DNA from: Coptis chinensis
Taxonomy: Eukaryota > Streptophyta > Magnoliopsida > Ranunculales > Ranunculaceae
Assembly: GCA_015680905.1 (NCBI GenBank)
Contig: CM027383.1
Coordinates: 96,805,501-96,869,500, forward strand
Reading direction: 5' to 3'
Length of the DNA stretch: 64,000 nt
A model generated the notes under the pieces. It saw only the letters and a list, made by a program, of their open reading frames with translations, was not told the DNA's origin and did no database searches. Below, piece after piece: positions 27,263 to 55,488 of the stretch; within the stretch, counting starts at the first letter, position 1; each line of letters begins with the position of its first letter. The position numbers and the translations under genes are program-made.

Positions 27263-30377
<3,115 letters not shown>

Positions 30378-30452
30378 GATAGATTGTGTTTGCTGTGGAA
30401 GAAGATGCCCGACTTCTCTTTTTATAGACTCATCAACTCCGAATCCACATCC

Positions 30453-30490
30453 CAATTGGGCTCTCTGGTTGTGGGCTTAACTAGTCGGTT
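30453..30490 (-). promoter_or_regulatory. GCCCA (site II-like) elements upstream of RPT3
   Basis: Two GCCCA-containing motifs (AGCCCAATT and TTAAGCCCAC on the minus strand) lie 80-105 bases upstream of the RPT3 start codon. GCCCA or TGGGCY site II elements, bound by TCP factors, are common in promoters of plant proteasome and ribosomal genes. Both motifs recur unchanged at 39579-39605 in the second copy of the duplication. Confidence 0.4.
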
Positions 30491-30574
30491 CTGGAGTTTC
30501 TCTCAAGTAATGTTTTTTTTTGGCCCTATATTTTGCCCACCTCAACAACACTATTTTTTTTTTTTTTTTTTTTT

Positions 30575-31820
30575 CTTTCGATTTTATGAATATTAACACA
30601 TAGCTTGTCTCCCTTAGACCAACTTTAAATCAAAACATCTATTAGTTGAAGTTTAAATTTTCAAATGTTGTTATTATATTTTTTCGATTGAAATTTTATT
30701 TTGTTATTAGAGTATTGTTAGTTATATTGTTTTGAGTTAAATGTTGGAATAGACAATAATTACTCAAAACATTTAAGTAATTATTGTTTTGGGTGCCAAT
30801 ATAAATTTTAATGCGGGGTATTTGTGCTATGCCTCCGTCCAACACTCTTGTAACTTTTTTTTTTGTTTTTTGTTTTTTTTGTTTTTGTTTTTTTTGTAAA
30901 CAACACTATTTTTTTTCCCCTTCGATTGTATGAATATTAACACATAGCTTGTCTCTCTTAGACCAACTTTAAATCAAAACATCTATTAGTTGAAGTTTAA
31001 ACTTTCAAATGTTGTTATTATATTTTTTCGATTGAAATTTTATTTTGTTATTAGAGTATTGTTAGTTATGTTGTTTTGAGTTAAATGTTGAAATAGACAA
31101 TAATTACTCAAAACATTTAAGTAATTATGGTAAAAGATTCTAGCAGTTGATAGGCATGGAGAGACTATCCGAGTAATATTATTATTGTATTGCTCCGATG
31201 AGAAGGTTTGTGGGTTTTCATTATTATGTATTTATTTATTTTTCTCTAATGAGTTATGTTAATTGTTTGTGTTGTCAACTTTTCAGATATCAAATCTTTT
31301 ACCAATTGCGTTATTGGTTTCAAATGTATTCATTTATAACCTGCTCTGTTTGTTGCTCCAAGGGGATTTGGCTTTGGGGTCCCCCACTTCTAGCAGTTGA
31401 TAGGCATGGAGAGACTATCCGAGTAATACTATTGTATTGCTCCGATGAGAAGGTTTGTATTGTCAACTTTTCAGATATCAAATCTTTTACCAATTGCGTT
31501 ATTGGTTTCAAATGTGTTCATTTATAACAAAGTAATTTTTTTGTTCTTAGCATTTTAAAGCTAGTGTACTATTATAGATGTTATGTTGGTGGGAATGTGA
31601 TGCATTTTTTTTTGCCCTATAAGCACTTGCCCACCTCAACAACACTATTTATTTTTATTTTGTTTTTTGTTTTTTTATTGTATAGACATCAACTTTAAAT
31701 CAAGACATCTATTAGTTAGTTGAAGTTTAGACTTTCAAATGTTATTATATTTTTCGATTGAAATTTGATTTTGTTATTAGAGCATTGTTAGTTGTAGTGT
31801 TTTGAGTTAAATGTTGGAAT
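30575..31820 (+). repeat. Tandem internal modules of the duplication unit, copy 1
   Basis: A 200-base module (ATGAATATTAACACATAGCT... ATTACTCAAAACATTTAAGT) occurs at about 30585-30785 and 30930-31125, with a partial third version at 31680-31820. Between the last two lies a second module starting AGCAGTTGATAGGCATGGAG (31142 and 31391), followed each time by a TTTCAG acceptor-like site and ATATCAAATCTTTTACCAAT. The set recurs in copy 2 (39700-40990). No protein family is recognised. Confidence 0.65.
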
Positions 31821-32040
31821 ATACATATTGACAACTAATGCACTTGCAATGTATAATTTGTTAACCATTTAGTATAACTTACAATGCAATTAAACATATA
31901 AAGGACATCGTTTTTTAAGTCATGGGTTGTTTCTAACGTGAAAAGGGTGTTGTTAACCCATGGGTTGTTTTTAGTGAAAGCACGTTAAAAACAAACAAAG
32001 TTTTGTCCTTTAAACTTTAAATTATTGTTGTCATTTAGAT

Positions 32041-32079
32041 TAAAAACATATAACATACAAAGTTATGTTATATGTTTTT
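32041..32079. repeat. Perfect short hairpin
   Basis: AAAAACATATAACATA pairs perfectly with TATGTTATATGTTTTT over 16 bases around a 6-base loop. The copy 2 version (41197-41236) has one extra A in the left arm and one extra T in the right arm, so the stem stays perfect. Confidence 0.7.
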
Positions 32080-33477
32080 GGGTTATAATATGAATATGCA
32101 TGAATATAATTATTGTTTTGGGTGCCAATATAAATTTTAATGCGAAATAGGGTACCATGTATTGCATCATAGGGTATTTGTGCTATGTGTCCAACACTCT
32201 AGTAACTTTGCAATTGGTAACGTTTTAAAAGTTCTTTGCTGTTTTATGAAGTGATTTAAGTTCTTGTTATTGTCACATTTTCAAAATCAATTACTGTTTA
32301 AATTAAATAACCATTTAAATAAAATATAATTATCTTATACTATAACTATAGCAAGCCGGGCAAAGTGGCTAGTAAAATATAGAATGAGTGTTACCTAAAG
32401 TGTGCATTTTGGACCGTGGTTGAACCCAAAAAGTATTGAAGAGAACAACTCGGTGAACGTTTGGTTTTATCAACCGTAAACAACTCGACAAAATAAAGTA
32501 TCAGCCCGGTTTCAAATGCATATATATATCGAAGATTTTATACCACCCATTTCTAAACCCTAATTCTTTCTTTTATCGAGAGAGAAAACAAATGAATATT
32601 AACCCTAATTTAAAGCAGACATAGATTTTGATTATTCGCTTTCTAGATTGCTTGCTTGGTGGGTCTTGAAGGGAAAACATTTTAAAGAAGATCTTGCTAG
32701 TGGTTCACCGTTAAAGGGAAAGGAATTCAAAGCAGACGAAGATCTTCAATTCACCCATTAGAGAAAGTTTCATAATGTCTTTCTCCTTTATGTCTTTTTA
32801 TCCAAACGATTTCTAAGGCTAGCTATCCGCCTTCTTGCTTTCACTTACCAGACTGACTTAATTAGAACATCTTTAATAGTGACATCAAATCATGTCAAAA
32901 CACCAAATTCCTGAAAATTTGGTTAAAAACCATCTTTAGTGGAGACACCAAATTATTTCAACATTAAAAAATCAGCAAATCAAACACCAAACCGGTCACC
33001 ATTTGGTGTTTGGTCTGGCGCTTAACCAAATGTACGACGTTGTTTTTTAACTGGGTGGGCTTTGGGCTCATTTATGGGCTTCATTGCACTGTTTCATATC
33101 ATAAAACAGCGTGGGCTGCTTAAAGTTTAGGCCCATGCGCAGTTTACTAAAAGCAACGTGCTCTGACTAAAAAAAAAGGCCAAAAAACAAACAACCAAAA
33201 AACAACTAAATTTCTCATTCCTTAACTATAATTTTATACACTCTAATTTTATTTTTGCATGTACCTTAATTTAAAGTTGATAAGTTTTATTATTTCATTT
33301 CTTGACAAATAAACATCATTCTTTATTGATAATAATAATAACAGATTACAACTTGGGAATTTAAAAACACACACAAAATAAATAAACACACATTGAACAT
33401 AAAACATGGCACAGAAATATATACATGGAACACAAATACATATGAACGATAAATAAACCAAGTCCAAATGAATTCAA

Positions 33478-33726
33478 TCAATGCCGACCACACCTAGACC
33501 ACAAATGCTTGACCAAGTCAACTTTTAACCTATCATAAATAACTTGTGAATGAAGCCGATTAACGCCAGTTGCCCAACGAGACAGAACAAAGTGGCGTTC
33601 ATGTTCAACTGCCCCTTATTTACTTGGAGGTTCATAATCAAGAATATATCATGGAATATCAGTTTCACGTTCATCTTCCACAATCATATTGTATAAGATT
33701 ATACAAGCCCTCATCACAGTAGACAT
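33478..33726 (-). pseudogene. PIF/Harbinger-type transposase C-terminal remnant, copy 1
   Basis: Minus-strand translation gives MSTVMRACIILYNMIVEDER, then, after a stop, HERHFVLSRWATGVNRLHS and a C-terminal VDLVKHLWSRCGRH. This pattern (RACIILHNMIVEDER followed by HxxLQxDLVEHLW) is the C-terminal end of plant Harbinger nuclease-type transposases. Two stop codons interrupt it, the first TGA at DIP-stop. A terminal-repeat-like GAACATCTTTAATAGTGAC preceded by TTA lies at 32865. Confidence 0.65.
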
Positions 33727-33917
33727 GGTCTCCAAATTTTTCACCATCTTTCAGAGAAAGAGCATGAAACGAATTTTTCTGCGTCTCGATGCCTCGTGCT
33801 TCCTGTCTATTTGATATGTCACGTATAATAATACTTGTGACTATGTTCTCAACAACAGGGGTCTCCTGCTCATCACTGTGTTCTTGTTGATGTGCTCTAG
33901 GCACAGCCCCTTCAACA

Positions 33918-34992
33918 TTAGACCCACGAACTACTAGTGTTGTAGTTGGTACTAGCTATCTCGGCTACTATCACATTGTTCTCTATAATCTGCTCTTGAG
34001 CATGTGCTTCAGTCAGAACCACTGCATTTGCATGCTCTTGTTCGGCTGGGATATGTGTATGAGGCACTCTCACTTCCTCATTATGAACCTCAACCTGTGT
34101 AATAAGAATCTCAGCTAAATTGCTAGTTTCCCCAGTTTCTGTTACCCGCCTACTTGTAAGATGATCTTTGCGTACCCAAGTCTGAGTTTGGGCTTCTGCA
34201 ACCTTATTATTCTTTTTGTAAGTTTTCTTTGTAGTCTTAGGCGCTTGCGGCATGGTAACAGGGCAATTAGATTCAGAGTGTCCAAATATACTACAACTTG
34301 GGATCCAAGGGTATTCTACCTTGACATCAGGAAAAATGCCTTCACCCAGCTTAACGGGTATAGTTGTAGGCAATTCTGAGTCTACAACAACCACAATACA
34401 TACCCTAGCAAAAGAAATCCTTTCTTTCTTAGCTGTGAGTTTGTCTAAGCACAAGGGTTTCCCCAAATAGCTAGCAACATATCCCAAATCTTTCCTGGAC
34501 CACAATTGTATAGGTAAATCTAAGTGTGGCCAGATAGGAATGGTGGTGAATTTTTGGCGCTGAATATCAATATCAACCGACCATTTCCTTAACACAAAGA
34601 TTTTACCGGCAATAAAGTAAGGCCCTGCTTCTAGAATCTTGGATCTGTCTTCATCTTCAGAGAATTTGAAGTAGAACAATTCCTTATCCGCAATTATTTC
34701 ATATGCTGCTTTAGTCTTCCAAAGTCTACTCAAGGTTGCTTTCACGTATGTACTGACTCCAATCTGATACCCCTTGTTGAATCACATCAGGGGGGATTTC
34801 TAGTACACCATCCACTAGTGTAGGGAAATACTGTTCAAGATTGGTATCATAAGAAGTATCATTACTACCAAACAGATTTCTCCATGTTCGATGAGGTTGA
34901 ACAGAAGGCCCTAAAAGTGAGGTAACAGTTTGTTGAGCTTGATCTGTAGAAGAGATGATCACCTCACCATCCGTTTGCGAGTTCAACTCCAT
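33918..34992 (-). pseudogene. LINE ORF1-like (DUF4283 plus zinc-knuckle) remnant, copy 1
   Basis: Two overlapping minus-strand frames, MELNSQTDGEV (34726-34992) and VKATLSRLWKTKAAYEI (33918-34745), make up one DUF4283-type nucleic-acid-binding domain broken by a frameshift near 34740. Recognisable pieces are RLWKTKAAYEI, FYFKFSEDEDRSKILE, GPYFIAGKIFVLRKW, IPIWPHLDLPIQLWS and a zinc knuckle PSCSIFGHSESNC whose second Cys is Phe. In plants this layout is ORF1 of L1-type LINEs. No reverse transcriptase follows; instead the frame runs into the Harbinger remnant. A decayed mobile-element gene, not a host gene. Confidence 0.7.
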
Positions 34993-35438
34993 CTCGGTGA
35001 GCCCGATCCAGCCGTTGTCGAGTCAACGGCAAAACACGCCGGCCATAGCCTGTCAAACTTACCTGAATAGGCAAGTTATCTTCAGAGAATAGAGTTCCCT
35101 CCAAAATAACCTTTAAATGGTTAAAAACCAAGTAAAAGTTGATAGTACCCTTATCCTAAAATCGCTCTCTAGGTATTTTGAGTTTAAGTAGATTTAGAAT
35201 TCTAGGTTTCTTGGTTATCAAGTTTGGCTCATCTAGGTATTTTAGTGTTTCATTAATTCAATTATTCAATCCAACAAATTATCACTTATCTAACACCTAA
35301 TATTATCTTAAACTTCTTATTCCTCTAAACTCTTCAATCTCTTTTCGTTCTTTTATCCTAGGAAAAATTTCCATATCAAATCTAAACCATTGTTCCCCGT
35401 TAGGTAAGAAGTCTATAACATTATTCTACAATACTTAC

Positions 35439-36212
35439 ATGCCAACAAGAAGTGTCCTGTATTTTGCGGAAAAAAAAATGTTGGACGGGATCATCTCTTT
35501 CCTTGAAAGAATTCATATCAAGGAACCAAAAAAGCCACCAAGAAAGCCCGAACCCGACGTGATTAGCTCTCTGCCTCAACCAATCATAAGCCACATAGCC
35601 TCCTTTCTTCCAACGGAAGAAGCAATAAGAAGCACCATTCTTTCTACAAGTTGGAGAAACGTATGCTCATCGCTTTCTAATTTGGAATTCAATCAAGCTT
35701 ATTTTAAGAAGAAGAAATTAGATAGTGAGGTTTTTAGCCGTTTTGTCTCTCACACACTTCGTAGCCATGATGGGTCAGATGTACACAAGTTCACACTCGA
35801 AGCTTACTTTGAAACCCTACCCGAACCTATGTTAGTCAATGAGTGGATCTCTTTTGCTGTACAACACAATGTTAAAGAAATCTATATTTCATTACATACA
35901 ATGACACCCGTAACTCTTCCGTGTTGCCTCTTTACATCTCCAACCATTACACTACTGGATTTGTTCGATTTCCGACTTAAGTTGCCTTCAGTTATTCATC
36001 TTTCCAACCTCCAACATTTGCAAATTGAGAGCTTATATTTTTGTAATGAGATGAGTTTGATCAATTTATTTTCCAATTTAAGTTGTCCATTAGTCAATTC
36101 ATGCTGCGTGGTGTCTTGCCCTCCGTATATTCCTGATTTGATTCCGAAATCGGGCTGGAATCTTAGGAGCTTCAGTATAGCTAATACGGTTACAGATTTT
36201 GATCGCATATAA
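35439..36212 (+). pseudogene. F-box/LRR gene, copy 1, 3'-truncated
   Basis: The frame matches residues 1-255 of the intact gene at 44585 and keeps the whole F-box (SSLPQPIISHIASFLPTEEA, then STSWRNVCSSL). At 36204 the match stops in mid-codon and two foreign residues and a stop follow, so the LRR and FBD-like C-terminal half is missing. Most of the visible differences from the intact copy change an amino acid (A/V, Y/D, E/K, D/N, V/F, D/N), as expected for a relaxed copy. A truncated F-box protein could still bind SKP1 if expressed, but there is no direct sign of function. Confidence 0.85.
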
Positions 36213-36265
36213 ACAAGTTGTATGTATGTTTAGTAATATGAATTGGGGGGGAGGGAATTTTTCAG

Positions 36266-37311
36266 GTTGTTCATCCAGCACCTGGCAATGCTAATGGCAC
36301 ACTTGTAAATGGAATTCTTCACCACTGCGCTCTTCCAAATATATTAAGCAATTCTATACTTTCTGACCTCGATGATGATTCTGACGCTGAGCTCACTGGC
36401 TCTCATGATGATCGGAGTTCCTCTATGGAGATTGGTTCTAGCATACGACCTGGAATTGTACATAGATTGGACAAAGGAACTAGCGGGTTACTTGTTGTTG
36501 CAAAGGTGAGCATTGGTACTTTGCTATTAAGCTGCTGCTTTGCTAATTAATGTAAGATTGGAAGGTTATATTCACATATATCTGTGGGGCTGTGTCCATT
36601 ATGTATTCACCCTAAAGGCATTTTTGTAGCTTCATAACATGGTACCAAAGTAATCCGACTTGTGAAGTCATCATTGACTCTTCACTTCTAGCAATCCTCC
36701 TCCTTGATCAGTTTCCTATCTCAACCTCTTCCACAATACTGGTTCCTTTTGTTTATGTTATCTCTGTTCTCTATCTCCCCCATATTTTTAAATGTAATTC
36801 CTTAAGATAATCCGGATGTTTTTTTACTTGGCAAAAGAATACAGAAGAGTTTCAGTAGTGCTTTGGTTTATATAGATGTATATGAACTTTGGTAAGAATA
36901 TGATTCTAAGAATCATCTTATCTATTGCAGGACGAGTATTCTCATGCCCATCTATCTGAACAGTTCAAGCAGCATACCATTCATAGAGTGTACATAAGTC
37001 TTACTTCGGGAGTTCCCACCACCCTTTCTGGACGTGTTGAGGTCCCAATAGGTCGTGATATCAACAATCGGATTCGTATGGCTGCTATACCTTGCCCTAG
37101 TGTCTCTAGACAGGTTCGCCATGCTGCTAGTAGGTCATTTTCCTTTCCTGCTTTAACTCTCTGGTTTTCCTAAACATCAGTCAAGTCTTCTCCTTTTCAG
37201 TATTTCACATATAGTACATTTTCTCTTTTTATGTTGAAGTGGTTTTGAAATTGAACTAGGTACAAGGTGATTGAAGTACTTGCAGGTGGTGGTTCTGCAT
37301 TGGTTGAGTGG
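36266..37311 (+). pseudogene. Captured fragment of a chloroplast-type RNA pseudouridine synthase gene
   Basis: Three exon pieces (36266-36505, 36931-37133, 37260-37311) with intact introns read [20 protein letters not shown], then [19 protein letters not shown] with the catalytic Asp of RluD-type synthases, GRVEVPIGRDINNRIRMA, and RYKVIEVLAGGGSALVEW. The third exon then stops abruptly in mid-domain, just before the expected RLETGRTHQIR segment. Both the 5' exons and the 3' part are absent. Because introns are kept, it was copied from genomic DNA and not from mRNA. It most resembles plant RNA pseudouridine synthase 2. It cannot make an enzyme. Confidence 0.85.
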
Positions 37312-38568
37312 ATCCTCCGAGTTATAATACATTGGTAATTATAATAAATTTAATCAAATCTAAATCATTTCAAGCTAAATTATAATCTTTATACATTTCG
37401 AGCTAAATTACAATTCTTTCGTCATTACAAGTGGTACAAAATACAAACACTCTAAAATGGATAATTGAAATACACAAACACTCAAGCACTACAAACACTA
37501 AACTATATTTCTAACTCTAAATCTTGTATTAACTCATACAACTTATACAAATAATATTCACGAATATTAAAAAAAAAAAAAAACATTCAAAAGACCTCGC
37601 TGGTTCGTTTGAGCCATTTCCAAAATGACCTCACCGAGTCATTTCAATGTTTTTCAAACAATACTTCGTTTTGGAGTTCAAATAACTTGCATTATATAAT
37701 AATCAATAATATAGAAACTACAAATTATTCAACAATAACAACCATACCGTATTATTCAACAATAGAAACCACAAATTGAGAAACTAGAGTTGAATTTAAA
37801 AAAAATTAAACAAAATGCATTAACAAAAATTGATATTCAAAATTGAAGAAATCCTTGTTTGCACCAACCAAACTATCCTTGCACAAAATCAAGTTTTGCT
37901 TTTGGTTTTTGATTTTTGGTTTGGTACCAGTTGAAAAAGTTGTTCCCAATTGCTGTGCAATTTAGGTAGGGGTGTATTGGACTTGCTTTGGACTTCGGTG
38001 TTTGTGCTTAGGCTGGAAGCTGCCCAATCCAATTCCTATGTCACCCCAAAAAATACTCAGTCCTCTAGAGTTGTTTTGACTTTTGAATCGAAATTTGACC
38101 TCGGACCAATATATTGAAATGGGCCTAGGGACGAATTTGTTGATATTAAAATCATGGCTTCTCTGTTCTCTCTTAATAAACTTTAGTACTTTACTCACTT
38201 CACACTCAAACACAAACATTCCCTCTTTCTACTTCTCACTAACAAAGAAAAAAATGTCACTACTACTAATAACACTAGATCTCCTTCTGCTCCGTAATTT
38301 TATACATGATTCAGAACACAGAACTGTTCTGTTGTTGATCCCCCAGGTAACATATATGCGCAGAGTACACCAAATCAGAGAACTCCATCTATCTTTTACT
38401 GTTTTACACTACATACATAGGCACAGTAGACCATGTTCTACTAATTTTCATCACACTAATAGGGAAACAAACCCAAAAGGGATGGAACATTGGAACCTAA
38501 CCGACCAAAGAAGAAAACAAGAATCCTATATTCTAAAATCTAATGCTGATCTACGGACAAAAGAAATT
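37312..38568. other. Filler sequence of unknown origin
   Basis: AT-rich sequence between the two captured gene fragments. An A run is at about 37570-37584. The right part (about 38220-38568) is probably 3' UTR of the polygalacturonase fragment. No ORF with recognisable content. Confidence 0.5.
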
Positions 38569-39246
38569 CTAACAATCATAGTTGGCGCTTTCGATAATTG
38601 TTTCAGGTCCCCCTTCTTGTAAGCAGCCAATGGGAGGGATGGTCAAGGTTTCTAGTGTTCCATAAGCATTCCAACAGAAAGGATCATCCACCAGCTCTCC
38701 CTCTTCGGGTAGTAATTCAACTTCGGATAGTGTTATATTTGTACATGCGACTGAGTCGCTGCAGGCAAAGTGTATAGGAGGGCTTCGGACGTCATAGGTG
38801 CCCTTTATATTCTTGTAAGAAACATCGCTTACATATACTGCCGAGGTTTCATTTCTGCAACCTTTAGTGAAGCAGTAGTATTGATCTATGATTATGCAGT
38901 TCTTCACATTGTCCATTTCGATGTTCTCAAATCTTATACCAGCTACAGAACCCATTCCGCCTTGCCATGTCTTGATTCTAACCCCGTTATCAGAGTCCTT
39001 TATATATGTGTTGCTGACTGATATGTTTGAAAAGCAGGCCTGTGAATTATGCACTCCAAGGCTCCCAATGCTGTACAAAAGAGATGGTTCAGTTATATAA
39101 GCATTGTTCACTTCTCAACTAGGATTTTTGACTAACTGAATTGGTTGCTGACTTAGTGACTCACCTGATCCCGTGACCATGTAAACAAGTGACATTATTT
39201 ATATCAACATCTGAACAACCTGGTCCAATGGAGATGCAATCGTCGC
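38569..39246 (-). pseudogene. C-terminal fragment of a polygalacturonase (GH28) gene
   Basis: Two exons (39165-39246 and 38569-39070) give DDCISIGPGCSDVDINNV, the GHGIS motif spanning the splice, [24 protein letters not shown], and a natural stop after ESANYDC. GH28 enzymes hydrolyse pectin in the cell wall; the DD, GHG and RIK motifs are present but the NTD motif, signal peptide and N-terminal half are missing. No upstream exon is found before the duplication boundary at 39579. It is either a captured fragment or the severed end of a gene. Confidence 0.85.
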
Positions 39247-42200
39247 CTGTTCAAAATCAGAAAGGCGTGGTATAATTCAATGTATAATCGGTTCTTCACT
39301 ACTGGGGTTGGGGGGGAATGTTTTCTGTTGGTTTTTCTGGACGATTATTTTATTTTAAATGGAAATATGGGTAAGTGGCAGTCCACGTGGCTCGGAACAC
39401 ATATTCACTGCCCTGCTGAAATGATAAATAAAACCCCTCAAAATTTCTTATTATTGTTTGGTCACAATAGAAAATTGGTTCAAATTTTAACTTGCTTTAC
39501 TTGTGAAACATGTAATATTCAATTCCCATCAAATATAGTAAATCCAAGTTGTGACGCAGTAAACCATCTGATAATAGAATTGGGCTCTCGGGTTGTGGGC
39601 TTAACTAGTCGGTTCTGGAGTTTCTCTCAAGTAATGTTTTTTTTTGGCCCTATATTTTGCCCACCTCAACAACATTTTTTTTTTTTTTTCTTGGATTGTA
39701 TGAATATTAACACATAGCTTGTCTCTCTTAGACCAACTTTAAATCAAAACATGTATTAGTTGAAGTTTAAACTTTCAAATGTTGTTATTATATTTTTTCA
39801 ATTGAAATTTTATTTTGTTATTGTTGGAATAAACAATAATTACTCAAAACATTTAAGTAATTATTGTTTTGGGTGCCAATATAAATTTTAATGCGAAATA
39901 GGGTACCATGTATTGCATCGTAGGGTATTTGTGCTATGCGTCCATCCAACACTCTTGTAACTTTTTTTTTTTTTGTTTTTTTTGTTTTTGTTTTTTTTGT
40001 AAACAACACTATTTTTTTTCCCTTCGATTGTATGAATATTAACACATAGCTTGTCTCCCTTAGACCAACTTTAAATCAAAACATCTATTAGTTGAAGTTT
40101 AAACTTTCAAATGTTGTTATTATATTTTTTCGATTGAAATTTTATTTTGTTATTAGAGTATTGTTAGTTATATTGTTTTGAGTTAAATGTTGAAATAAAC
40201 AATAATTACTCAAAACATTTAAGTAATTATGGTAAAAGATTCTAGCAGTTGATAGGCATAGAGAGACTATCCGAGTAATATTATTGTATTGCTCCGATGA
40301 GAAGGTTTGTGGGTTTTCATTATTATTTATTTATTTATTTTTCTCTAATGAGTTATGTTAATTGTTTGTGTTGTCAACTTTTCAGATATCAAATCTTTTA
40401 CCAATTGCGTTATTGGTTTCAAATGTGTTTATTTATAACTTGCTCTGTTTGTTGCTCCAAGGGGATTTGGCTTTGGGGTCCCCACTTCTAGCAGTTGATA
40501 GGCATGGAGAGACTATCCGAGTAATACTATTGTATTGCTCCGATGACAAGGTTTGTGGGTTTTCATTATTATTTATTTATTTATTTTTCTCTAATGAGTT
40601 ATGTTAATTGTTTGTGTTGTCAACTTTTCAGATATCAAATCTTTTACCAATTGCGTTATTGGTTTCAAATGTGTTCATTTATAACAAAGTAATTTTTTTG
40701 TTCTTAGCATTTTAAAGCTAGTGTACTATTATAGATGTTATGTTGGTGGGAATGTGATGCATTTTTTTTTGCCCTATAAGCACTTGCCCACCTCAACAAC
40801 ACTATTTATTTTTATTTTGTTTTTTGTTTTTTTATTGTATAGACATCAACTTTAAATCAAGACATCTATTAGTTAGTTGAAGTTTAGACTTTCAAATGTT
40901 ATTATATTTTTCGATTGAAATTTGATTTTGTTATTAGAGCATTGTTAGTTGTAGTGTTTTGAGTTAAATGTTGGAATATACATATTGACAACTAATGCAC
41001 TTGCAATGTATAATTTGTTAACCATTTAGTATAACTTACAATGCAATTAAACATATAAAGGGCATCGTGACGAAGTCATGGGTTGTTTCTAACGTGAAAA
41101 GGGTGTTGTGACCCATGGGTTGTTTTTAGTGAAAGCACGTTAAAAAACACGGAACAAAGTTTACCTTGCCGCCAAATTATTGTTGTCATTTAGATTAAAA
41201 AACATATAACATACAAAGTTATGTTATATGTTTTTTGGGTGCCAATATGAATATGCATGAATATAATTATTGTTTTGGGTGCCAATATAAATTTTAATGC
41301 GAAATAGGGTACCATGTATTGCATCATAGGGTATTTGTGTTATGTGTCCAACACTCTAGTAACTTTGCAATTGGTAACGTTTTAAAAGTTATTTGCTATT
41401 TTATGAAGTGATTTAAGTTCTTGTTATTGTCACATTTTCAAAATCAATTACTGTTTAAATTAAATAACCATTTAAATAAAATATAATTCTCTTATACTAT
41501 AACTATAGCAAGCCGGGCCAAAGCCGGGCAAAGTGGCTAGTAAAATATAGAATGAGTGTTACCTAAAGTGTGCATTTTGGACCGTGGTTGAACCCAAAAA
41601 GTATTGAAGAAAACAACTCGGTAAACATTTGGTTTTATCAACTGTAAACAACTCGACAAAATAAAGTATCAGCCAGATTCCAGAGCATATATATACCGAG
41701 ATTTTATACCACCCATTTCTAAACCCTAATTCTTTCTTTATCGAGAGAGAGAAACACAATGAATATTAACCCAATTTAAAGTAGACATAGATTTTGATTA
41801 TTCGCTTTCTAGATTGCTTGCTTGGTGGGTCTTGAAGGGAAAACATTTTAAAGAAGATCTTGCTAGTGGTTCACCGTTAAAGGGAAAGGAATTCAAAGCA
41901 GACGAAGATCTTCAATTCACCCATTAGAGAAAGTTTCATAATGTCTTTCTCCTTTATGTCTTTTTATCCAAACGATTTCTAAGGCTAGCTATCCGCCTTC
42001 TTGCTTTCACTTACCAGACTGACTTAATTAGAACATCTTTAATAGTGACATCAAATCATGTCAAAACACCAAATTCCTGAAAATTTGGTTAAAAACCATC
42101 TTTAGTGGAGACACCAAATTATTTCAACATTAAAAAATCAGCAAATCAAACACCAAACCGGTTACCATTTGGTGTTTGGTCCCGGCTTTAACCAAATGTA

Positions 42201-42628
42201 CGACGTTGTTTTTTAACTGGGTGGGCTTTGGGCTCATTTATGGGCTTCATTGCACTGTTTCATATCATAAAACAGCGTGGGCTGCTTAAAGTTTAGGCCC
42301 ATGCGCGGTTTACTAAAAGCAGCGTGCTCTGACTAAAAAAAAAGGCCAAAAAACAACTAAATTTCTCATTCCTTAACTATAATTTTATACACTCTAATTT
42401 TATTTTTGCATGTACCTTAATTTAAAGTTGATAAGTTTTATTATTTCATTTCTTGACAAATAAACATCATTCTTTATTGATAATAATAATAACAGATTAC
42501 AACTTGGGAATTTAAAAACACACACAAAATAAATAAACACACATTGAACATAAAACATGGCACACAAATATATACATGGAACACAAATACATATGAACGA
42601 TAAATAAACCAAGTCCAAATGAATTCAA

Positions 42629-42877
42629 TCAATGCCGACCACACCTAGACCACAAATGCTTGACCAAGTCAACTTTTAACCTATCATAAATAACTTGTGA
42701 ATGAAGCCGATTAACGCCAGTTGCCCAACGAGACAGAACAAAGTGGCGTTCATGTTCAACTGCCCCTTATTTACTTGGAGGTTCATAATCAAGAATATAC
42801 TGCGGAATATCAGTTTCACGTTCATCTTCCACAATCATATTGTATAAGATTATACAAGCCCTCATCACAGTAGACAT
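42629..42877 (-). pseudogene. PIF/Harbinger-type transposase remnant, copy 2
   Basis: Same as 33478-33726, but the first stop of copy 1 is a CAG codon here (DIPQYILDYEPPSK). One further stop remains before HERHFVLSRWATGV. Copy 2 is thus nearer to the ancestral frame at this point. Confidence 0.65.
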
Positions 42878-43071
42878 GGTCTCCAAATTTTTCACCATCT
42901 TTCAGAGAAAGAGCATGAAACGAATTTTTCTGCGTCTCGATGCCTCGTGCTTCCTGTCTATTTGATATGTCACGTATAATAATAATACTTGTGACTATGT
43001 TCTCAACAACAGGGGTCTCCTGCTCATCACTGTGTTCTTGTTGATGTGCTCTAGGCACAGCCCCTTCAACA

Positions 43072-44108
43072 TTAGACCCACGAACTACTAGTGTTGTAGT
43101 TGGTACTAGCTATCTCGGCTACTATCACATTGTTCTCTATAATCTGCTCTTGAGCATGTGCTTCAGTCAGAACCACTGCATTTGCATGCTCTTGTTCGGC
43201 TGGGATATGTGTATGAGGCACAGGCACTCTCACTTCCTCATTATGAACCTCAACCTGTGTAATAAGAATCTCAGCTAAATTGCTAGTTTCCCCAGTTTCT
43301 GTTACCCGCCTACTTGTAAGATGATCTTTGCGTACCCAAGTCTGAGTTTGGGCTTCTGCAACCTTATTCTTCTTTTTGTAAGTTTGTAGTCTTAGGCGCT
43401 TGCGGCATGGTAACAGGGCAATTAGATTCAGAGTGTCCAAATATACTACAACTTGGGATCCAAGGGTATTCTACCTTGACATCAGGAAAAATGCCTTCAC
43501 CCAGCTTAACGGGTATAGTTGTAGGCAATTCTGAGTCTACAACAACCACAATACATACCCTAGCAAAAGAAATCCTTTCTTTCTTAGCTGTGAGTTTGTC
43601 TAAGCACAAGGGTTTCCCCAAATAGCTAGCAACATATCCCAAATCTTTCCTGGACCACAATTGTATAGGTAAATCTAAGTGTGGCCAGATAGGAATGGTG
43701 GTGAATTTTTGGCGCTGAATATCAATATCAACCGACCATTTCCTTAACACAAAGATTGATCTGTCTTCATCTTCAGAGAATTTGAAGTAGAACAATTCCT
43801 TATCCGCAATTATTTCATATGCTGCTTTAGTCTTCCAAAGTCTACTCAAGGTTGCTTTCACGGATGTACTGACTCCAATCTGATACCCCTTGTTGAATCA
43901 CATCAGGGGGGATTTCTAGTACACCATCCACTAGTGTAGGGAAATACTGTTCAAGATTGGTATCATAAGAAGTATCATTACTACCAAACAGATTTCTCCA
44001 TGTTCGATGAGGTTGAACAGAAGGCCCTAAAAGTGAGGTAACAGTTTGTTGAGCTTGATCTGTAGAAGAGATGATCACCTCACCATCCTTTTGCGAGTTC
44101 AACTCCAT
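43072..44108 (-). pseudogene. LINE ORF1-like (DUF4283) remnant, copy 2
   Basis: Same content as 33918-34992 with two further lesions: a 45-base in-frame loss that removes the region from KILEAGPYF to AGK, and a short deletion near 43385 that splits the frame at the linker after the zinc knuckle. It is more decayed than copy 1. Confidence 0.7.
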
Positions 44109-44584
44109 CTCGGTGAGCCCGATCCAGCCGTTGTCGAGTCAACGGCAAAACACGCCGGCCATAGCCTGTCAAACTTACCTGAATAGGCAAGTTATCTTCA
44201 GAGAATAGAGTTCCCTCCAAAATAACCTTTAAATGGTTAAAAACCAAGTAAAAGTAGATAGTACCCTTATCCTAAAATCGCTCTCTAGGTATTTTGAGTT
44301 TAAGTAGATTTAGAATTCTAGGTTTCTTGGTTATCAAGTTTGGCTCATCTAGGTATTTTAGTGTTTCATTAATTCAATTATTCAATCCAACAAATTATCA
44401 CTTATCTAACACCTAATATTATCTTTCTCTATTTATTCTTCGTCTTCTTCAAACTAAACTTCTTATTCCTCTAAACTCTTCAATCTCTTTTCGTTCTTTT
44501 ATCCTAGGAAAAATTTCCATATCAAATCCAAACCATTGTTCCCCGTTAGGTAAGAAGTCTATAACATTATTCTACAATACTTAC

Positions 44585-46194
44585 ATGCCAACAAGAAGTG
44601 TCCTGTATTTTGTGGAAAAAAAAATGTTGGACGGGATTATCTCTTTCCTTGAAAGAATTCATATCAAGGAACCAAAAAAGCCACCAAGAAAGCCCGAACC
44701 CGACGTGATTAGCTCTCTGCCTCAACCAATCATAAGCCACATAGCCTCCTTTCTTCCAACGGAAGAAGCAATAAGAAGCACCATTCTTTCTACAAGTTGG
44801 AGAAACGTATGCTCATCGCTTTCTAATTTGGAATTCAATCAAGCTGATTTTAAAAAGAAGAAATTAGACAGTGAGGTTTTTAGCCGTTTTGTCTCTCACA
44901 CACTTCGTAGCCATGATGGGTCAGATGTACACAAGTTCACACTCAAAGCTTACTTTGAAACCCTACCCGAACCTATGTTAGTCAATGAGTGGATCTCTTT
45001 TGCTGTACAACACAATGTTAAAGAAATCTATATTTCATTACATACAATGACACCCGTAACTCTTCCGTGTTGCCTCTTTACATCTCCAACCATTACACTA
45101 CTGGATTTGTTCAATTTCCGACTTAAGTTGCCTTCAGTTATTCATCTTTCCAACCTCCAACATTTGCAAATTGAGAGCTTATATTTTTGTAATGAGATGA
45201 GTTTGATCAATTTATTTTCCAATTTAAGTTGTCCATTAGTCAATTCATGCTGCGTGGTGTCTTGCCCTCCGTATATTCCTGATTTGATTCCGAAATCGGG
45301 CTGGAATCTTAGGAGCTTCAGTATAGCTAATACGTTTACAAATTTTGATCACAACGTACTCAGCCTAAAGTTGGATACATTTCTATATCATGGATCGCCG
45401 CCAAATATACATCCGAAGTTCTTCTATTCTATGAAGACTGTTACAATTTCGCTTTTAAATCGTGCCGAAAATCTTACTGAGGATTGTCGTCGTGCTACTA
45501 ATATTATAGTGGGACTGCGTAATGTGAAAGCACTCTGGCTAAATAGGCTCACTGTTAAGGTAAGATATCTTTTCATTTCCACACTAAATAAACGTTCTTC
45601 TTGTGTAATCTGTCTATATCATGTACTATTGATCTAACGCTTAATTGATGCATGTTTGCAGTATCTTGCCCATGATGAGCGTTCACTAGCGCAACTTCCT
45701 ATATCTTTTCGTCGTATGAAGATTTTGGGTTTCCACCTTTATCCTAAAACAAACCAAGTTCAAGTTTTAAGTTTCTTCCTGGGGAGGTGTCCGAACTTGA
45801 TCAACCTTGTCATAAAATTCCTTGTATGAAATCGTCTTTTTGTTGGTTTGTTTGTTTTGTTCAAATAATTTAAAACTATTTTTCCTTTTACTAACATCTT
45901 TATCTTGATTAGGATGGGTCTCGTTTGGGCAACGTCAAAGAAAAATATTGGCAACTACCGAAGTCGTGTGATGGAGCATTGGATAATCTTAAATCAATTG
46001 CCTTTCATCTTTTTTATGGAAGCAAAAGTGAATTAGAACTCATGAGATGTATATTTTCTCGTGCTAAAAACATTGAGAAGATGGTTATTCATTACTCAGA
46101 AGAAAAGCAGAAAAATGTAGCGTGGAAGAAAATTGTGAGTAATAAGATACGAGGATTCTTGGAAGATCGAAATGTTCTGATAACATTTATGTGA
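44585..46194 (+). CDS. F-box/LRR protein with FBD-like C-terminus, intact copy
   Basis: Exons 44585-45559, 45662-45823 and 45913-46194 join at phase 0 to give 472 residues, normal for plant F-box/FBD/LRR proteins. The F-box is at about residues 41-85 (DVISSLPQPIISHIASFLPT, then SWRNVCSSL), degenerate LRRs follow (LPSVIHLSNLQHLQIESLYF), and the last exon has an FBD-like region (LDNLKSIAFHLFYGSKSELE, then RAKNIEKMVIHY). Such proteins are substrate receptors of SCF ubiquitin ligases; the target is unknown. The first 255 codons lie in the duplicated block, the rest only here. A second Met at 44624 is a possible alternative start. The C-terminal exon has no counterpart in copy 1. Confidence 0.85.
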
Positions 46195-47239: not shown

Positions 47240-50200
47240 TTACGAAATTGAGAACCTCCTCCTCCTTGGTTTTGTTATCTCCAGATCACAATCCTCGATG
47301 TTCAGTGTATCTTTTGATCCATGTTTAAATGGATTCAACTTGCCTAGAGTTTTACCGACGGAATGAAAGAATGTTGGTCTCTTTGATGCAGACTTAGTTG
47401 ATGAGGGCCCTGACTGATTTTTCTGCATATCCGAGACGTACATTTTCATCTTTAACAATTCAGTCCTGAGGACTTCGTTCTCTTTGGCTAATGATAAATC
47501 TGTTTGTAATTGGCTCCTGGTTGATGTGGCATCTGGCATGTTGCGATCATCAACTCCACTCCTCAACTTGAGTTGATCGTAGTAGAGAGCGTGAAGCACA
47601 ATTTGTACAGGTAATCGCTTATTTTTAGAAGCATGGACCCTTGCTTCATATGAAAGCTTGAGTGCGTCCATCACACTACAGACCTTTTCTCTTTCAATCT
47701 CATCTAAGTTTGGATGTGCCTGATTATAACGACCACAGTTTCAATTAGTTAGTTATGTTAACGAGTACCTTCAAAAAATTGCACCTGGTTGTACTCTTAA
47801 GTTATAGTGTAGATAAATGAAATTCTGTAAGGTAGCTCCTCCACACTTATTATATTAAATTTGACGAGAGCTAATATAATTTGTACCTTCAAATAGATAT
47901 CAATGGCCCTGTAGAGATCGTCGTCAACCTTCCTTGCTGCCTTAGGAACTAGATTGGCTATTCCATTGAACTTTGAAATTGCGAGTTCATGATATGTTGC
48001 AATCTCACTAAGATATGCATCAACAGTCCTAGCAACTTTTTGCATAGCTGCTGAACACACCTCCTTGAAGTCACCACCATTGAAAACTGCTACACTATTC
48101 TCCTTCTCCATAAAGCCTGAGATGATTCGACGAACACTCTCAAGATCAAAGAGCTTTTCACCATCATAACTGAATGACACTACCAACAGATCATCCACTG
48201 TAACATGTTCTAAAATGGCAGAGATTCTTTTCTCAAGGTTGTTCTTACAGCTACTTGTTGCGTTCAAGAAAATTGCCGACTTGAGGAGACAGCATACAAA
48301 ATTGACAGGCAACGATGCCTTTTCAGATGGCAAGAGACTGACGATTGCTTCTAGTATATTTCGTTGTTGTTTTTTCATATTTGCATCATCAAATTCCAAC
48401 GATTTAATGTTGTTTGCAGGATGATCCCTAACAAGGTCTCTGAGTGATTTCTCGGTATATGTAATGAGAGCACTTGATAGCGTGTGAGTTTTTGCACCAC
48501 GAGATTTCATAGAAGAAATTACTTTCTTAAATGAATCAATATCTAGGATAGTTAATTCTTCCGTCCACCAATTTGTAGGAGAGCGGCTTGGAAAGTTTGC
48601 TTCATTGCAGGCCTACAAAACAGAGTTAATGCAAACTAGTTAAATACACTTGCATAAAGGATTCATCAGTAGAATACTGGGCAGAGTTTGTGTGACAGTG
48701 TGATCCCTTTAAGAAGGCAGTATTGAGCTACCCCACCAAAATACAAGGATTTTGAAGAATATTAACGCCCTTGGAAAACTAGATAGTATAACAGTTTGTC
48801 TCAGTCCTACAATAATCTTGTTTTTCAAGGGTAGCCTTGTGCTTCCTTCTTAGCCTCTTCGGGGAACTTCTAACGTTCCTCTGTATGTAAAATGTAATAT
48901 CGTTCTAGGTATGTCCCCACTCCGCACAGCCAAATTGGCATACTACCTGTATCCATGACGGTCTGATGGAACTGTGATTTATGACAGAGAAGTAATATAA
49001 GAAAAAAGTTATAGGACAAACCTTAGAGCTTAAAACATCCACACATCTTTGGACAATATTAACCTCTTCTGCCATAGGGAGTAGATCTTCACAAGTTTTC
49101 AACACAACCAAAGCAGCTGAGAAGCTCATCAAAGCCACTTGGGTAATGAACTCCTCTGTTCGACCTGCCAGATTTCCTTCACAATACTTGTCTGTCATTT
49201 GTAGAAATTCTGCGGCGCAATACAGTGCTGCAATATTCTGTACTGTTATCTCAAAGTTAACTCCATAACAAAATTTGGCCGCTTTTTCAAAGATTGCTGG
49301 TCCTCCAGGGATATCCGAGAGATCTATTCTTGTCAAATCTGGTTCGTTTGATTCCACTATCATCTTTCGTATATAACCACTCTTGGCTACGAGCATAAAC
49401 TGTAACAATAAATTCAGTACTCTTAAAACCTGTAAATCGTATCTAAATTCGAAAGGCAGACTAATTTCCAAAACACTTAAGTTTACAACCTATCAAATCA
49501 TGCAAGATGGCATTCTGAAAGTTAGGCAATTGTTAAGTAAGGTAGAATTTTGAGTAATTCCACGCTGCAAATCATTGTAGTATACTACAGTTTTTAGGAT
49601 TGCTAATAAAAAACACAAGAGAATGCTTACTTCCTTATGAGTAGTAGTTGTAAAAGCTTCTCTTGTGTTTCTTATTCCTCGTATCTTTATCCTCTTTTTG
49701 CAGCTAAGAAGATACCATTTCTCTCCACCAAATGGAACAAGTCTACAACTAGGACAACAATAGAGAGTGGCAGCAGCAACCGTTTTGGTGCCATTAGAGC
49801 CTCCTCAGAGGCTCAGGCTCTCCAGAAAGAACCATAGAGGGAGGAGTGCATTTGACACCCCTCAAGAACTTTCATGGAAAGTTTATGGTAACTGTTTAGG
49901 GTGTTGAAGAATTTCTTTGGAAGTGTTATCCATTAAAGTCTGTCAATGGTGGTGAACTACCCTGACTACGCTTCCTATCATGAAGATTTGTAGTAAAGTG
50001 GAATTCTCCAGTGAAATTCCATAGACCAATAACCAGCCAAACACACGATTAATACCAGTATAGCATGTCTGAGTTAGTTCCGACTTTGTAGTTAACATGA
50101 TTTCCATTTCTTTTTCCCAAAAAAGATGTTACAAAAAAACATGGTTTCCGATCCGTTTCTTTTTCCCAAAAAAGATCTGATCTTACGAAATTTTTTTTGT

Positions 50201-50729
50201 AGTTCCATGAACTTTAGTTGAACTCTCAAGTTACGCAACTTGGGAAGTTTGACACTAAACACTCCATTTGACTCATTCAGATGTGCTCAAGAGAAAATAG
50301 GCATCACGTGGTTCTATAATGTGTGCAATTAATCAAGAAAAAAAAAAAAAAAAAAAAAACTGCACAGAAGAAATCAAAAGCAAATAAAACTATTAGAAAG
50401 CAGAGGATACATATTAGTCATAGCTAGAAATGTACCTTGTGAAGGGAAAAATTAGCCTCACCCACTTCCACAACAACATCAGATGGGATATCTTGAGAGA
50501 AGATCCTGAAAATGAGTTCAGAAGAAAGAAACAAGGATCTATATTCAGATTCTGAAGCATTGAAACAATATAATTAGACAAAGAAGAATGACTGAAAATG
50601 GTTTAGTTATTTCCAAAAAGTAGTAATTAAGTACCACTGGCCAGTTCTTTCCATGGCAGTATAGAGCCTGCGGTTGTTGTTGTTGTTGTTGTTGTTGTTG
50701 TTATTGTTGTTCTTGGCAATGGTAGCCAT
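47240..50729 (-). CDS. RPT2: BTB/NPH3 protein, Root Phototropism 2
   Basis: Five exons (50635-50729, 50436-50505, 49022-49399, 47887-48612, 47240-47719) give 582 residues in one frame. RPT2 acts with phototropins and NPH3 at the plasma membrane in phototropism and in adaptation to bright blue light. The BTB domain starts at DIPSDVVVEVGEANFSLHK and runs through LAKSGYIRKM-type sequence; the NPH3 domain includes WWTEELTILDID, LLPSEKASLPVNFVCCLL, DDDLYRAIDIYLKAHPNLDE and RLPVQIVLHALYYDQLKLR. A coiled coil (SLAKENEVLRTELLKMKMYV) follows, then the C-terminal RRRRFSIS. The antepenultimate Ser there matches the known 14-3-3 docking site of RPT2/NPH3. Residues 7-19 are 13 Asn, encoded by a GTT microsatellite. 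Intron 2 is long (about 1 kb). Confidence 0.95.
50673..50711. repeat. GTT microsatellite encoding poly-Asn in RPT2
   Basis: Thirteen near-perfect GTT units (one is ATT) lie inside exon 1 of RPT2 and read as 13 Asn codons on the minus strand. Likely variable in length between individuals. Confidence 0.9.
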
Positions 50730-50785
50730 TAACGTATGTCTCTCTTAAGAAAAGTGGCCTTTGAAAAGGTATTGCTGTACTTTTT

Positions 50786-50794
50786 CTTATATAG
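50786..50794 (-). promoter_or_regulatory. Candidate TATA box of RPT2
   Basis: CTATATAAG on the minus strand, about 60 bases upstream of the RPT2 start codon. It is a near-consensus TATA box and leaves room for a short 5' UTR. Confidence 0.55.
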
Positions 50795-53700
50795 AAACTA
50801 TTATTTCTGTAATTGGATTACTTCTAAAATGAATTTGCCTTATCTAAATGTAATCTAGCTCTTCTTATCTCACAAGCTCTTTAACTTGCTTCACTATTTA
50901 AGACTAAGAGACAGCACACATGCAGTTTTGTGTTCTCATGCATGCATGGCGGCTCATCATATCAGCTAACCTCAACTTGATCACCTAAATTGACATTCTT
51001 TTTATCCATTCCTAAAGTCCTCATCAGTGTACGTGGTCCTCAACACAAATTATACTTTTTAACTTCAATAAATTTTCTGATGGGCTAGACGAATTGCACG
51101 AAACATGCATCTTCTTCATGGCACCGACACTCACAAATCATAATGGTCTGAGTGACGAGTGAGTGTCGATGAGGCCATGACTCCCATGAGGGGTGCACAA
51201 CGTAATGTCATACTAGAGTAGTCATGCGTGCAGTGGCGTGGGTGCGTGCATCGGTAGCAGACCAAGGACTACGTGCAAATCACATACCATAAGTGGTAGT
51301 ATAGCCACGGTTCACCACTAGCTGTTTCCTTGTATCGATCCGCAATTCCACGTACATTAGTTTTAAGAACCCCAAACTTTTATGACTATAGCTAACATAA
51401 CACGCTTTTAGAGAGATTGGTGTCTTTTTGTAACAAATCATGCTAACAAGGATCTGAGGAATGGTAAAAAAAACCTTGTGACTTATTGGATTCGAACAGG
51501 ATGGTTCGAACTAGTCATAGATAATTATGTTACCATATCTCACAGACTAGGCTTATAGAGACCTAAGGTCAATGCTAATTATGTATGTAGCCAATTCCAA
51601 ATTCTAGCCTGTTACTGTCACTTTTACTACCATATGGAATATGTTGATAGTTAGTACTTAGAACTGGGTGTTAAACCGTATCATGTGGCTGGGAGTTGAT
51701 GCAATGCAAGCTTATTCAACTTGGGTTGGCTTAACTCAAACTGGCTAGTAAGATGTTTGTCAAAGACAGACGGAATGCTGCATGTTTGTCCATTTATTTG
51801 TTTGTTAATGGCGGTGGGGTTTGTACTTTTCTCCAAATTTCTGTGGACTGCAAAGCTTTTGCGTCGAAAGTTCAATAAGCCTTGGTCCAATTCTCGTTAT
51901 TGAGTGTCTCCGCCACACAAACCATATGTGGCTAGTAACTTTTCACCAAATTTTAAGTACAAGATTATGGTTGCCTTGGTTCCACGTCATTTGCCAACTA
52001 ACTTCCTAATTCCTCGCCTCCATCGATTCTGACAGGATAACATGGTGGGCGCTCACTATAGCAATCTGATCGGCCGTCTCAGCTAATACTTTTCTTACGC
52101 GTGTATTGAATATTGATCCGCTCATCCACATCCACTCATAAAGTCATAAACCTCCCTTATATACTGAGAGCAAAGCTGAAAAGCTATGTCATAGTGTCAT
52201 ACTCACTGAAAAAATACTTCAAAATATGGAAACGATCCTCTAGTTGATCCGAAATTTCCATATGCTAGGACACTGGGCCACTGCTTGTCTGCAATCTGCA
52301 TCATATATGCCTAGAGTTGCATTCTTTTTGTTTTTTTTGTTTTTTTTTTGTTTGGTTTTTCCTATTGCTGCATACATGCATTCAGTAATTCATTCTAGAC
52401 CCTGTATAAACTTTAATACTTTAAAGTGATGGGATAGGTACAACTCTTTGTTCAATACGTACATGTATCCTATCAGTTTTCCTCCAAGATATTGGGTACA
52501 TCTGATACCGTGCCTGTACTGGCAAAAATGCTAAGAATACTCTTCTCACATTCTAAGCCCAAAGGAAACAGTAGTCCAGACGAACTTCCATTGATAGCAA
52601 ATTGTTTCCTATCCACCAAAAAATATGACATTGGCGTCGATACAAAATATCCTACTGTGATATGTATTTGGTTCCTCGAAATGGATGATATGAAGTCCAA
52701 TCATTTTGTTTTTTTTTAATAAGCTTAGGGCTAGTCAGTCCCCCTGTTCATTAGAATCGTAAATAAAGATTACCAGCTTCGTCCTCAGCTCCTCCACAAA
52801 GTAGAGCAGTTGAGCTTAGAGGGAGGTTACAAAGTAGTTACAGGCTACATTAGTTTGTAGGCCGGCAAGGAAGTCTTCAGCTATAAATCGTGTCTATTGC
52901 TAAACAAAACCACACTGTCACAGTGTCACTTGTGATTTTGTGAATTCCAAATGCAAAACATGGTTGTTACTATAGTGGACCTTCATTAGGTTGTGGCTTT
53001 GGTGGCTTATTTACGACAAGAACCTTGTTGAGTTGGAGACCCAAAATAGGCTCAATGGTTTCACTTCATGGGTTGGGCTAATTTGAGTTTGTTCCAGTAA
53101 GATATTTGTGGGCCAAAACTCAATGTTCTAAAAAACGCTAGGCGGTAGTCAGGCGGTGGGAGAGTGCCTAACACTTAGATAGGCTAGGTGACAGACGGTT
53201 TTTTTATTAATATATCTTATAATATATATAGTAATACACATTTATACTACAATAAATAAAGAAAATCATTTACCTTAACTCAAAAAATAAACACAAACAA
53301 ATATACTTATTACAAAAATGTGTAATAGTTGAAGAAAATCGACTTCATATGAAAACATACTCTTTCTTATAGTGACATATAATTTACATTGGACTTTAGT
53401 CTTTTAAACTTATTCAAATCTTAAGCCTACACAAAGTACACAGGTCTTTAATTTTCAACATTTAATCATTCAAAAAAAAAAAAAAAAAAAACTTGACTGG
53501 ACCGTTTAGAGGCCGCCTAGCCTGTCTAATTGGTCCACCAATTTTTTAAAAGACTTGGAATCAGGCAAGTTAGTTGAGCACCGCATGACGCCTAGAGTTA
53601 CCTATACCGATTTTTAGAACAATGTTAACTACATGGACTGCTGGACGTATCATTTACACAAAATTTGTACACCTGCGTAATTAATTTAACCAGTTGGAAA

Positions 53701-55488
53701 AGTGGACATCAAATTCTACCAAAAAAAATTCTAGTGGGGTAAGGTGGTGATTGGATGCAAAGCATAGACATCTTTGGTAGTCAACTTATGTTGGGTTGCA
53801 TGTGAGGTGAGTGGAAAATGGATGTGGTAAGCCCTTTATATTGGTTGGACGGCCCAACCAGAAGTTGGTGGAATTGATATTTTCAATCACACAAAATATA
53901 CTGCCTTTTGACCCGCCTGGTATGAGGACCACTTTCTATGCGTGCCACTTTCTACAACATATTTCTTTTGGCTTCATGGACACATGATGTCGCTTTATTC
54001 ATCAAAGATTGCTCTAATTTACTGCTTAATGAGTTTCAAAATTTTAAGTTGGAGTGTCTAATTTGAAGCGTTATGTGGAATATGGAATGATGATAAAGAC
54101 TTACCTAATCGATGAGTAGAATTTGGTTGGTCGTGCCATTTGGCCTGATTGCCCCATTGTCGCAAGTCCCTGAGCCACAAATCAAACCAGCGCTGTTCAT
54201 ACAATTCAGAATTGAAATGGTCATTAGAGATGTAGGGTCTTCTTTTTCTTTTTTCTTTTTCCAACAAGGAGGTGTAAGGTCTTCTTTAGGAAAACGTTTT
54301 ACTAGGATTGATATAGATTGAAATTAACATCCTATGCAGCCAGCAGCCCCTATTTCCATGAGATTGAAATTAATGTTAAGTCCAATGAATGCGTAGAGTG
54401 AAATGCACTCCCCCAAAGAATTAGTGAAAATCGTTTGACTTTTGGAGCGTTGGTACGAAAGATAGACTTCAATGCGCAGGGGTGTTTGTTCAGCTGGGAC
54501 TAGGTGCCTCTTCTACTGCTACTTGATAGAAAAGCTCTGTACTTTTTCAAGAAGATTCAGACGTTAATCACGTATCTCAAGTGTACTTAAACCGAAACAT
54601 ATATACTAAGCGTGATCATTGCTCTCAAACAAACAGTAGCAACCTATGCACTAGCTAATTTTATTCTTCTCTTGTGTTTGAGGCTTTTGAGTACCATATA
54701 ACAAACCATACCACACGCCCACACCCCTAGTTTCACTTTTTATTTCTTCTATAAGGCGTTTTAGTAAAACAAGTGTATGAACTTGTATCGACTATTTAAA
54801 ATAGTTTACCTAAAAACAAAGCAAAAGACTACTTAAAATAGTTTTGGACTCATGAGCTTGTATAACTAATCCAGCAATTCACAATATCTAAATCTAAACT
54901 GCTCTCTCTCTGTGCTATTTGTCTTGTGAAGGTAAATACATAATTTGTCCTAGTAACTTGAGTTCGTTCAAGCTTAAAGGTATTTTCAGGAAACATGCAC
55001 GTCACCTTCATCGCAGTTAGCCAACAAGGACACGACGACAGAAATAAGATTGAAAAGAACAGTAGGTTGAATCATCAAAGTCAATGAAGAAAGACAATAA
55101 TAATAATCTTGTAGTTAACCAACAAGAAAATGATGTAATTAAAGTTAACCCAAAAGGAGATAGAGAGCTAAACAAGAACATGTGTAAGTCTCAGATGGCT
55201 TGTTATGTGGGGGACAAAGAGTGATATAATGTTGCGCAAGAGATTTCGCCAACCCCACTAATTTTCATGGTATAAAAAGGAAATGTTTTTCTCCCACAAG
55301 GTGTGCACTTTGAGGAACGGTTGGCGACTCATAAAACTCATTTTTAAACACAATTTGCCTTGGACTCACGTTATCCTTTGTCACTGCCTAGGAGGAAAGT
55401 GAGTTCAGTGGACAAACTCTATCTTGCTAACTGGGTTTTGTGCTCATCCTCCCCTGATCTGTTTATGGTATATATCACCTCGATCTTC
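50795..55488. other. Long intergenic region between RPT2 and the acid phosphatase gene
   Basis: No supported gene. Short RY-type CATGCATGCATG is at about 50938-50950. The clear insertion is the inverted-repeat element at 53126-53619. Several 60-75 codon frames have no recognisable content on either strand. Confidence 0.55.
53126..53619. mobile_element. Inverted-terminal-repeat element (MITE) with 5-base target duplication
   Basis: It starts TTCTAAAAAACGCTAGGCGG and ends with CCGATTTTTAGAA, flanked by CAATG on both sides (53121-53125 and 53620-53624). Subterminal CTAGGCGG/CCGCCTAG motifs are also inverted. It is 494 bases and non-coding, so non-autonomous. The exact TIR/TSD split is ambiguous by a base or two, and the superfamily is not certain. 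Confidence 0.7.

Follow-up and report, generated by a model that had tools for sequence, protein, structure and literature searches.

The window is a stretch of 64,000 nucleotides in the Coptis chinensis assembly (C7:96805501-96869500; 935.6 Mb in 116 contigs). It carries no N. Contig C7 ends at 97.19 Mb, about 0.32-0.38 Mb away from the window taken as a whole. Two direct copies of a 5.75-kb unit are found in the window, separated by a filler of 3,375 bases (36203-39577, measured from where piece A begins). The features are given in Table 1.

The duplicated unit and its flanks

Table 1. Features of the duplicated unit, its left flank and the filler. Positions are those of the window. The edges of the two copies were set by base-by-base reading.
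Feature	Position	Strand	Content
RPT3 first exon	29988-30377	-	Left flank of copy 1
Copy 1	30454-36204	+	RPT3 upstream DNA, dispersed-repeat modules, DUF4283 ORF, truncated F-box frame (+)
DUF4283 ORF in copy 1	33918-34781	-	
Piece A	36203-37312	+	Exons and introns from within a pseudouridine-synthase gene
Junction A/B	37313-37323		11 bp, outside both BLAST matches
Piece B	37324-38292	+	Dispersed repeat followed by an expansin-like gene's upstream region and first 13 codons
122-codon reading frame	38254-38619	+	Expansin-like start fused to antisense polygalacturonase
Junction B/C	38293-38300		8 bp, outside both BLAST matches
Piece C	38301-39271	-	Polygalacturonase (GH28) 3' exons, stop codon, 3' flank
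Junction C/D	39272-39287		16 bp, no clear assignment
Piece D	39288-39478	+	Low-copy sequence, C3 matches
Piece E	39479-39577		99 bp, match at the window's own place alone
Copy 2	39578-45350	+	F-box frame extends into the right flank

To its left, copy 1 is flanked by the 5' end of RPT3, and the unit begins about 75 bp upstream of the RPT3 start codon. For the first exon, chains of 26S subunit 6B/RPT3 are matched at E 4e-42, and the top match is an AAA protein that does not bear the RPT3 name (4.7e-51). Both copies have an F-box domain, in a frame that is truncated in copy 1 and extends beyond the unit in copy 2 (44417-45637). A dispersed repeat family, common to C7:96.70 Mb and C2:76.66 Mb, has its left boundary 12 bases inside the left edge of the unit (30454-30466).

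Self-BLAST gives two blocks: 30454-31458 corresponds to 39578-40556 (90.4%) and 31453-36207 to 40610-45353 (96.2%, 58 mismatches). A genome search with 30000-36300 placed the full unit at these two positions only, among the best 40 of 666 candidates. Within the same best 40 of 666, a 1.43-kb part of the unit that includes the DUF4283 frame is also found on C4 and C6 (88-89%). An earlier reading made from the sequence alone (hereafter the sequence-only reading) had described near-identical direct copies, the first keeping the RPT3 flank and the second the F-box flank. Self-BLAST and base-by-base reading bear out the copies, with edges at most one base from those it gave, and protein matches, domain matches and self-comparison bear out the flanks.

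The MAFFT core of the two copies contains 99 mismatched columns among 5,737 ungapped ones (short flanks counted in), or 71 difference events once neighbouring mismatches are merged. That the copies are almost identical, as had been stated, holds only if the uneven placing of these 71 events is kept in mind. No event falls in 31528-31904 or in 32617-32996; 21 fall in 31905-32616 and 21 in 33251-36202. Over 31528-36202 the differences are patchy (index of dispersion 1.68, p 0.03), and for this reason copy divergence is not used as a clock for the left half. The stretch 33251-36202 differs by 19 substitutions in 2,952 positions (0.6%) and the DUF4283 part at 4 of 1,389 sites (0.3%). A cluster of complex differences is seen at 31905-32018, where copy 1 is derived and copy 2 has the state of the repeat family; it may reflect templated mutation, conversion or sequence error.

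Composition of the filler and its joints

The filler is a chain of pieces that match, in order, contigs C2 (A), C1 (B), C8 (C) and C3 (D). Of its 3,375 bases, 3,217 belong to pieces that are matched at other genomic places (A, 1,110; B, 969; C, 947, a 24-bp extra segment being left out; D, 191), with smaller internal indels still counted in. The chain A-B-C-D is found at this place alone among the best 40 of 330 candidates. The sequence-only reading had described intron-containing pieces of a pseudouridine-synthase gene (+) and of a polygalacturonase gene (-), and had proposed a search for their parent loci. Donor alignment and domain matches establish both pieces, and the search leads to C2 for the first and to C8 for the second. 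Its description of the filler as two unrelated genic fragments is right as to these two, but is an undercount: pieces B and D were overlooked.

Piece A has its best match on C2 near 106.13 Mb (1,113 columns, 17 mismatches, 22 gap positions), which amounts to 17 of 1,091 ungapped columns (1.6%). A second C2 match, near 106.56 Mb, starts from 36489 onward. The three sequences relate in a star-like way, with private changes numbering 5 in piece A, 8 in the first C2 copy and 13 in the second (803 columns). The second C2 pseudouridine-synthase piece (positions 3396-5604 of C2:106559000-106567500) follows directly on a protein-kinase gene's end and is without the 5' part; it may be a further truncated or relocated gene piece.

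Piece B is best matched on C1 near 1.977 Mb, in an alignment of 984 columns with 71 gap positions; 27 of the 913 ungapped columns are mismatched (3.0%). The dispersed repeat in its first part recurs at dozens of genomic places (best 40 of 330 candidates). The C1 sequence that follows the match corresponds, in another frame, to the expansin-type domain DPBB_1; the more specific model EXPB1_D1 is under its cut-off in this gene.

Piece C is the closest to its match, on C8 near 24.496 Mb: two substitutions and indels (~0.2%), or three mismatches by BLAST if the ambiguous tail to 39288 is counted. A segment of 24 bp (38325-38348) is missing from the C8 copy. By eye, this segment and its flanking bases (38318-38348) form a 7-bp inverted repeat with a one-base spacer, the trace to be expected of snap-back synthesis. 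Where the filler keeps the frame, both the C2 gene and the C8 gene have a frameshift, possibly through gene decay or assembly error.

Piece D matches C3 near 29.994 Mb (92%, over 39312-39478) and near 30.385 Mb (83%, over 39288-39478); its left end is closer to one C3 place and its right end to the other. The frame tried in it gave no Pfam match. For piece E, the genome search returned its own place only (1 of 1 candidates) and no source was found. Its derivation from a diverged upstream part of the dispersed repeat of the unit was rejected, since shuffle support is uneven between two members: against member 1 the score is 38 (shuffles 30 +/- 5; equalled by 0.07 of 300 shuffles), and against member 2 a fraction of 0.38 of shuffles is as good.

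Four joints have a source on both sides; the two joints of piece E are not counted, because without a source they cannot be read. Short microhomology is found at one of the four, the joint between copy 1 and piece A, where 2 bp (TC, 36203-36204) are common to both. The other three carry 8-16 unassigned bp; these figures are relative to the assembled matches, from which the true donor alleles may differ. Local templates for the junction inserts were set aside; an 11-mer of the C/D insert recurs in the unit at 31847 and 41004.

Two 6-kb segments of the window served as controls (best 40 of 297 and best 40 of 997 candidates; mostly repeats). In 9000-15000, a 1.9-kb stretch (13091-15000) has up to three C4 matches of 93-95% at 107.1-107.7 Mb (best 40 listed) and is possibly another inter-chromosomal copy, a gene family or an element. 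The same control has, among the matches listed, 0.5 kb that matches C2 and C8 at 87%, plus a high-copy repeat. In 50000-56000, one high-copy repeat is found besides the window itself among the matches listed. Likeness to other chromosomes is therefore not peculiar to the filler. A four-chromosome chain at a duplication seam is absent from the matches listed for both controls, which says little about its rarity.

Origin, age and possible consequences

One break-repair event with serial template switching, of the SDSA or BIR/MMBIR type, is considered the probable origin of the locus (probability about 0.7). The two copies, the mosaic between them, the best matches and the junction sequences can be read directly from the assembly. 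Repair would have started here from a broken chromosome end or a collapsed fork. Synthesis would have copied, in turn, sequence of C2 type (about 1.1 kb), C1 type (about 1.0 kb), C8 type (about 1.0 kb) and C3 type (about 0.2 kb), and then a piece of 0.1 kb. It would then have re-entered the home locus, on the sister or the homologue, about 5.75 kb behind the break. The outcome would be copy 1 bordered by the RPT3 flank, followed by the filler and by copy 2, which would border the F-box flank. The enzymes would be those of MMBIR-type break-induced replication, or of SDSA ended by polymerase-theta joining.

Several observations argue for this origin. The C2 and C8 matches sit in longer genes that run past the filler edges, and the C1 match runs on into expansin-type coding sequence; since the donor matches continue into their own genes, the filler is the derived arrangement. 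The position of the filler coincides exactly with the joint of the duplication. Break repair with several template switches, one of the two origins suggested by the sequence-only reading, is thus supported: four of the five pieces match four other chromosomes, and homology to C2 starts from the last two bases of copy 1.

Divergence is uneven, and the single event is therefore proposed rather than demonstrated; the direction of copying is likewise a proposal. One recent date would be compatible with the DUF4283 part (4 of 1,389 sites) and with piece C (2 substitutions). The excess divergence of A and B may come from alleles or paralogs that are missing from the assembly, in view of the star-like relation of A to its two C2 relatives, or else from rounds of repair. 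The latter belongs to a scheme of two or more steps: a tandem duplication, perhaps larger, would have come first, and a later break at or near the seam would have led to loss of DNA and to patchwork filler, possibly in rounds. This scheme, which is rather unlikely, draws on the range of divergence of the pieces from their best matches (0.2% to 3.0%), as rounds of unlike age would give, and on the patchy differences between the copies themselves. However, non-reference donor alleles also account for that range, and a filler repair placed at the duplication seam is an extra coincidence.

Insertion of a transposon with captured gene pieces (Helitron, Pack-MULE or other Pack-TIR) between tandem copies, the other suggested origin, is disfavoured and appears extremely improbable. 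Several captured intron-containing gene pieces are typical of Helitron/Pack-MULE-type elements; by eye, the TC at 36203-36204 and, near 39570, a CTGA with a T after it also superficially resemble Helitron ends. Ordinary C2 gene sequence (piece A) nevertheless runs from the last two bases of copy 1 onward; a transposon end has no room there, and no terminus fits the left edge. Filler ends of Helitron or Pack-MULE type were rejected on account of piece A at the left; the right edge was judged by eye. Moreover, the filler edges are the two duplication halves, insertion precisely at the seam would be a coincidence, and no second copy of the chain is found among the best 40 of 330 candidates. An assembly artefact, in which allelic contigs or chimeric reads were joined, is very unlikely. 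The frameshifts of the C2 and C8 genes against the intact frame of the filler indicate that base-level assembly errors are possible. Yet the window is free of N, a four-chromosome chain with short junction inserts would be an unusual stitching error, and the 71 copy differences, with pieces unlike their best matches, show that contigs were not re-used.

Comparison of filler and copies, proposed by the sequence-only reading, gives ~0.2% for piece C, 0.3-0.6% for the copies in places, 1.6% for A and 3.0% for B. At neutral rates of ~7e-9 to 1.3e-8 per site and per generation or year, the low values would correspond, in order of magnitude, to ~0.1 to 0.5 million years or generations. Indels are not used for dating, because the C2 and C8 frameshifts warn of small assembly errors or gene decay. 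The earlier description of the locus as recent finds support only in its least diverged parts (the DUF4283 part, 0.3%; piece C, ~0.2%).

Of the four pieces with matches, three (A, B in its latter part, and C) are clearly genic, and such cases can therefore be used to test a genic-template bias of plant break repair. They can also gauge the share of break repair in gene duplication, gene-fragment dispersal and chimeric genes. Read in this way, the locus would be a readable record of kilobase-scale template switching between chromosomes, linked to a plant tandem duplication.

It is a long shot, suggested by the arrangement, that the single repair event was also a gene-assembly step, any expression being a prediction. 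Three features would jointly make it so: an expansin-type upstream region, a start codon and a signal-like leader would precede new coding sequence (the 122-codon frame); the duplicated RPT3 upstream region would face the polygalacturonase 3' exons in sense direction; and one F-box copy would be truncated. The 122-codon frame (38254-38619) gave no Pfam match. The chance that the copied upstream region and the new frame do something is small, and a function of the locus other than truncation of one F-box copy is unlikely. If the reading were true and the frame transcribed, template-switching repair favouring genic templates would build promoter-bearing chimeric genes in one step.

Comparison with known repair systems

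Plant filler DNA is reportedly attributed to SDSA-type break repair (Wicker et al. 2010). Four of the five filler pieces at the present locus match loci on other chromosomes that keep the original, a feature considered for MMBIR/FoSTeS and SDSA alike.

The locus resembles plant SDSA filler (PMC4423477, PMC3706897) in that foreign pieces are copied from ectopic templates into a repaired break. Non-homologous segments are given for 38 barley indels (12.7%) (PMC3706897), and gene movement by SDSA filler is mentioned (PMC3445842). Rice excision fillers are reported as 1-123 bp long (PMC4423477), whereas here the filler is ~3.4 kb, consists of five pieces and lies at the seam of a 5.75-kb duplication.

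In helq-1 worms, tandem duplications of ~100 bp to 10 kb are ascribed to theta joining of aborted recombination; plants are said in the same paper to be without HELQ and to have patchwork insertions (PMC8654963). The present duplication is within this size range and has patchwork at its joint. Theta patchwork in that account maps to break-flanking sequence (PMC8654963), whereas the pieces here match other chromosomes; such kilobase-long pieces would need longer synthesis.

The published account of MMBIR/FoSTeS (PMC2621351) includes pieces copied from elsewhere, of hundreds of bp to a few kb, and a direct duplication by return to the home template behind the break, which gives the order copy, foreign pieces, copy. 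The arrangement of the locus fits this order, the process here being deduced. Unlike in the duplications of that account, the pieces match four other chromosomes, and whereas its joints have 2-5 bp of microhomology (PMC2621351), here 2 bp are common to copy 1 and A and the other three readable joints carry 8-16 bases unassigned relative to the assembled matches, which may not be the true donor alleles. The kind of event is already known; this example of it is unusually large and clear.
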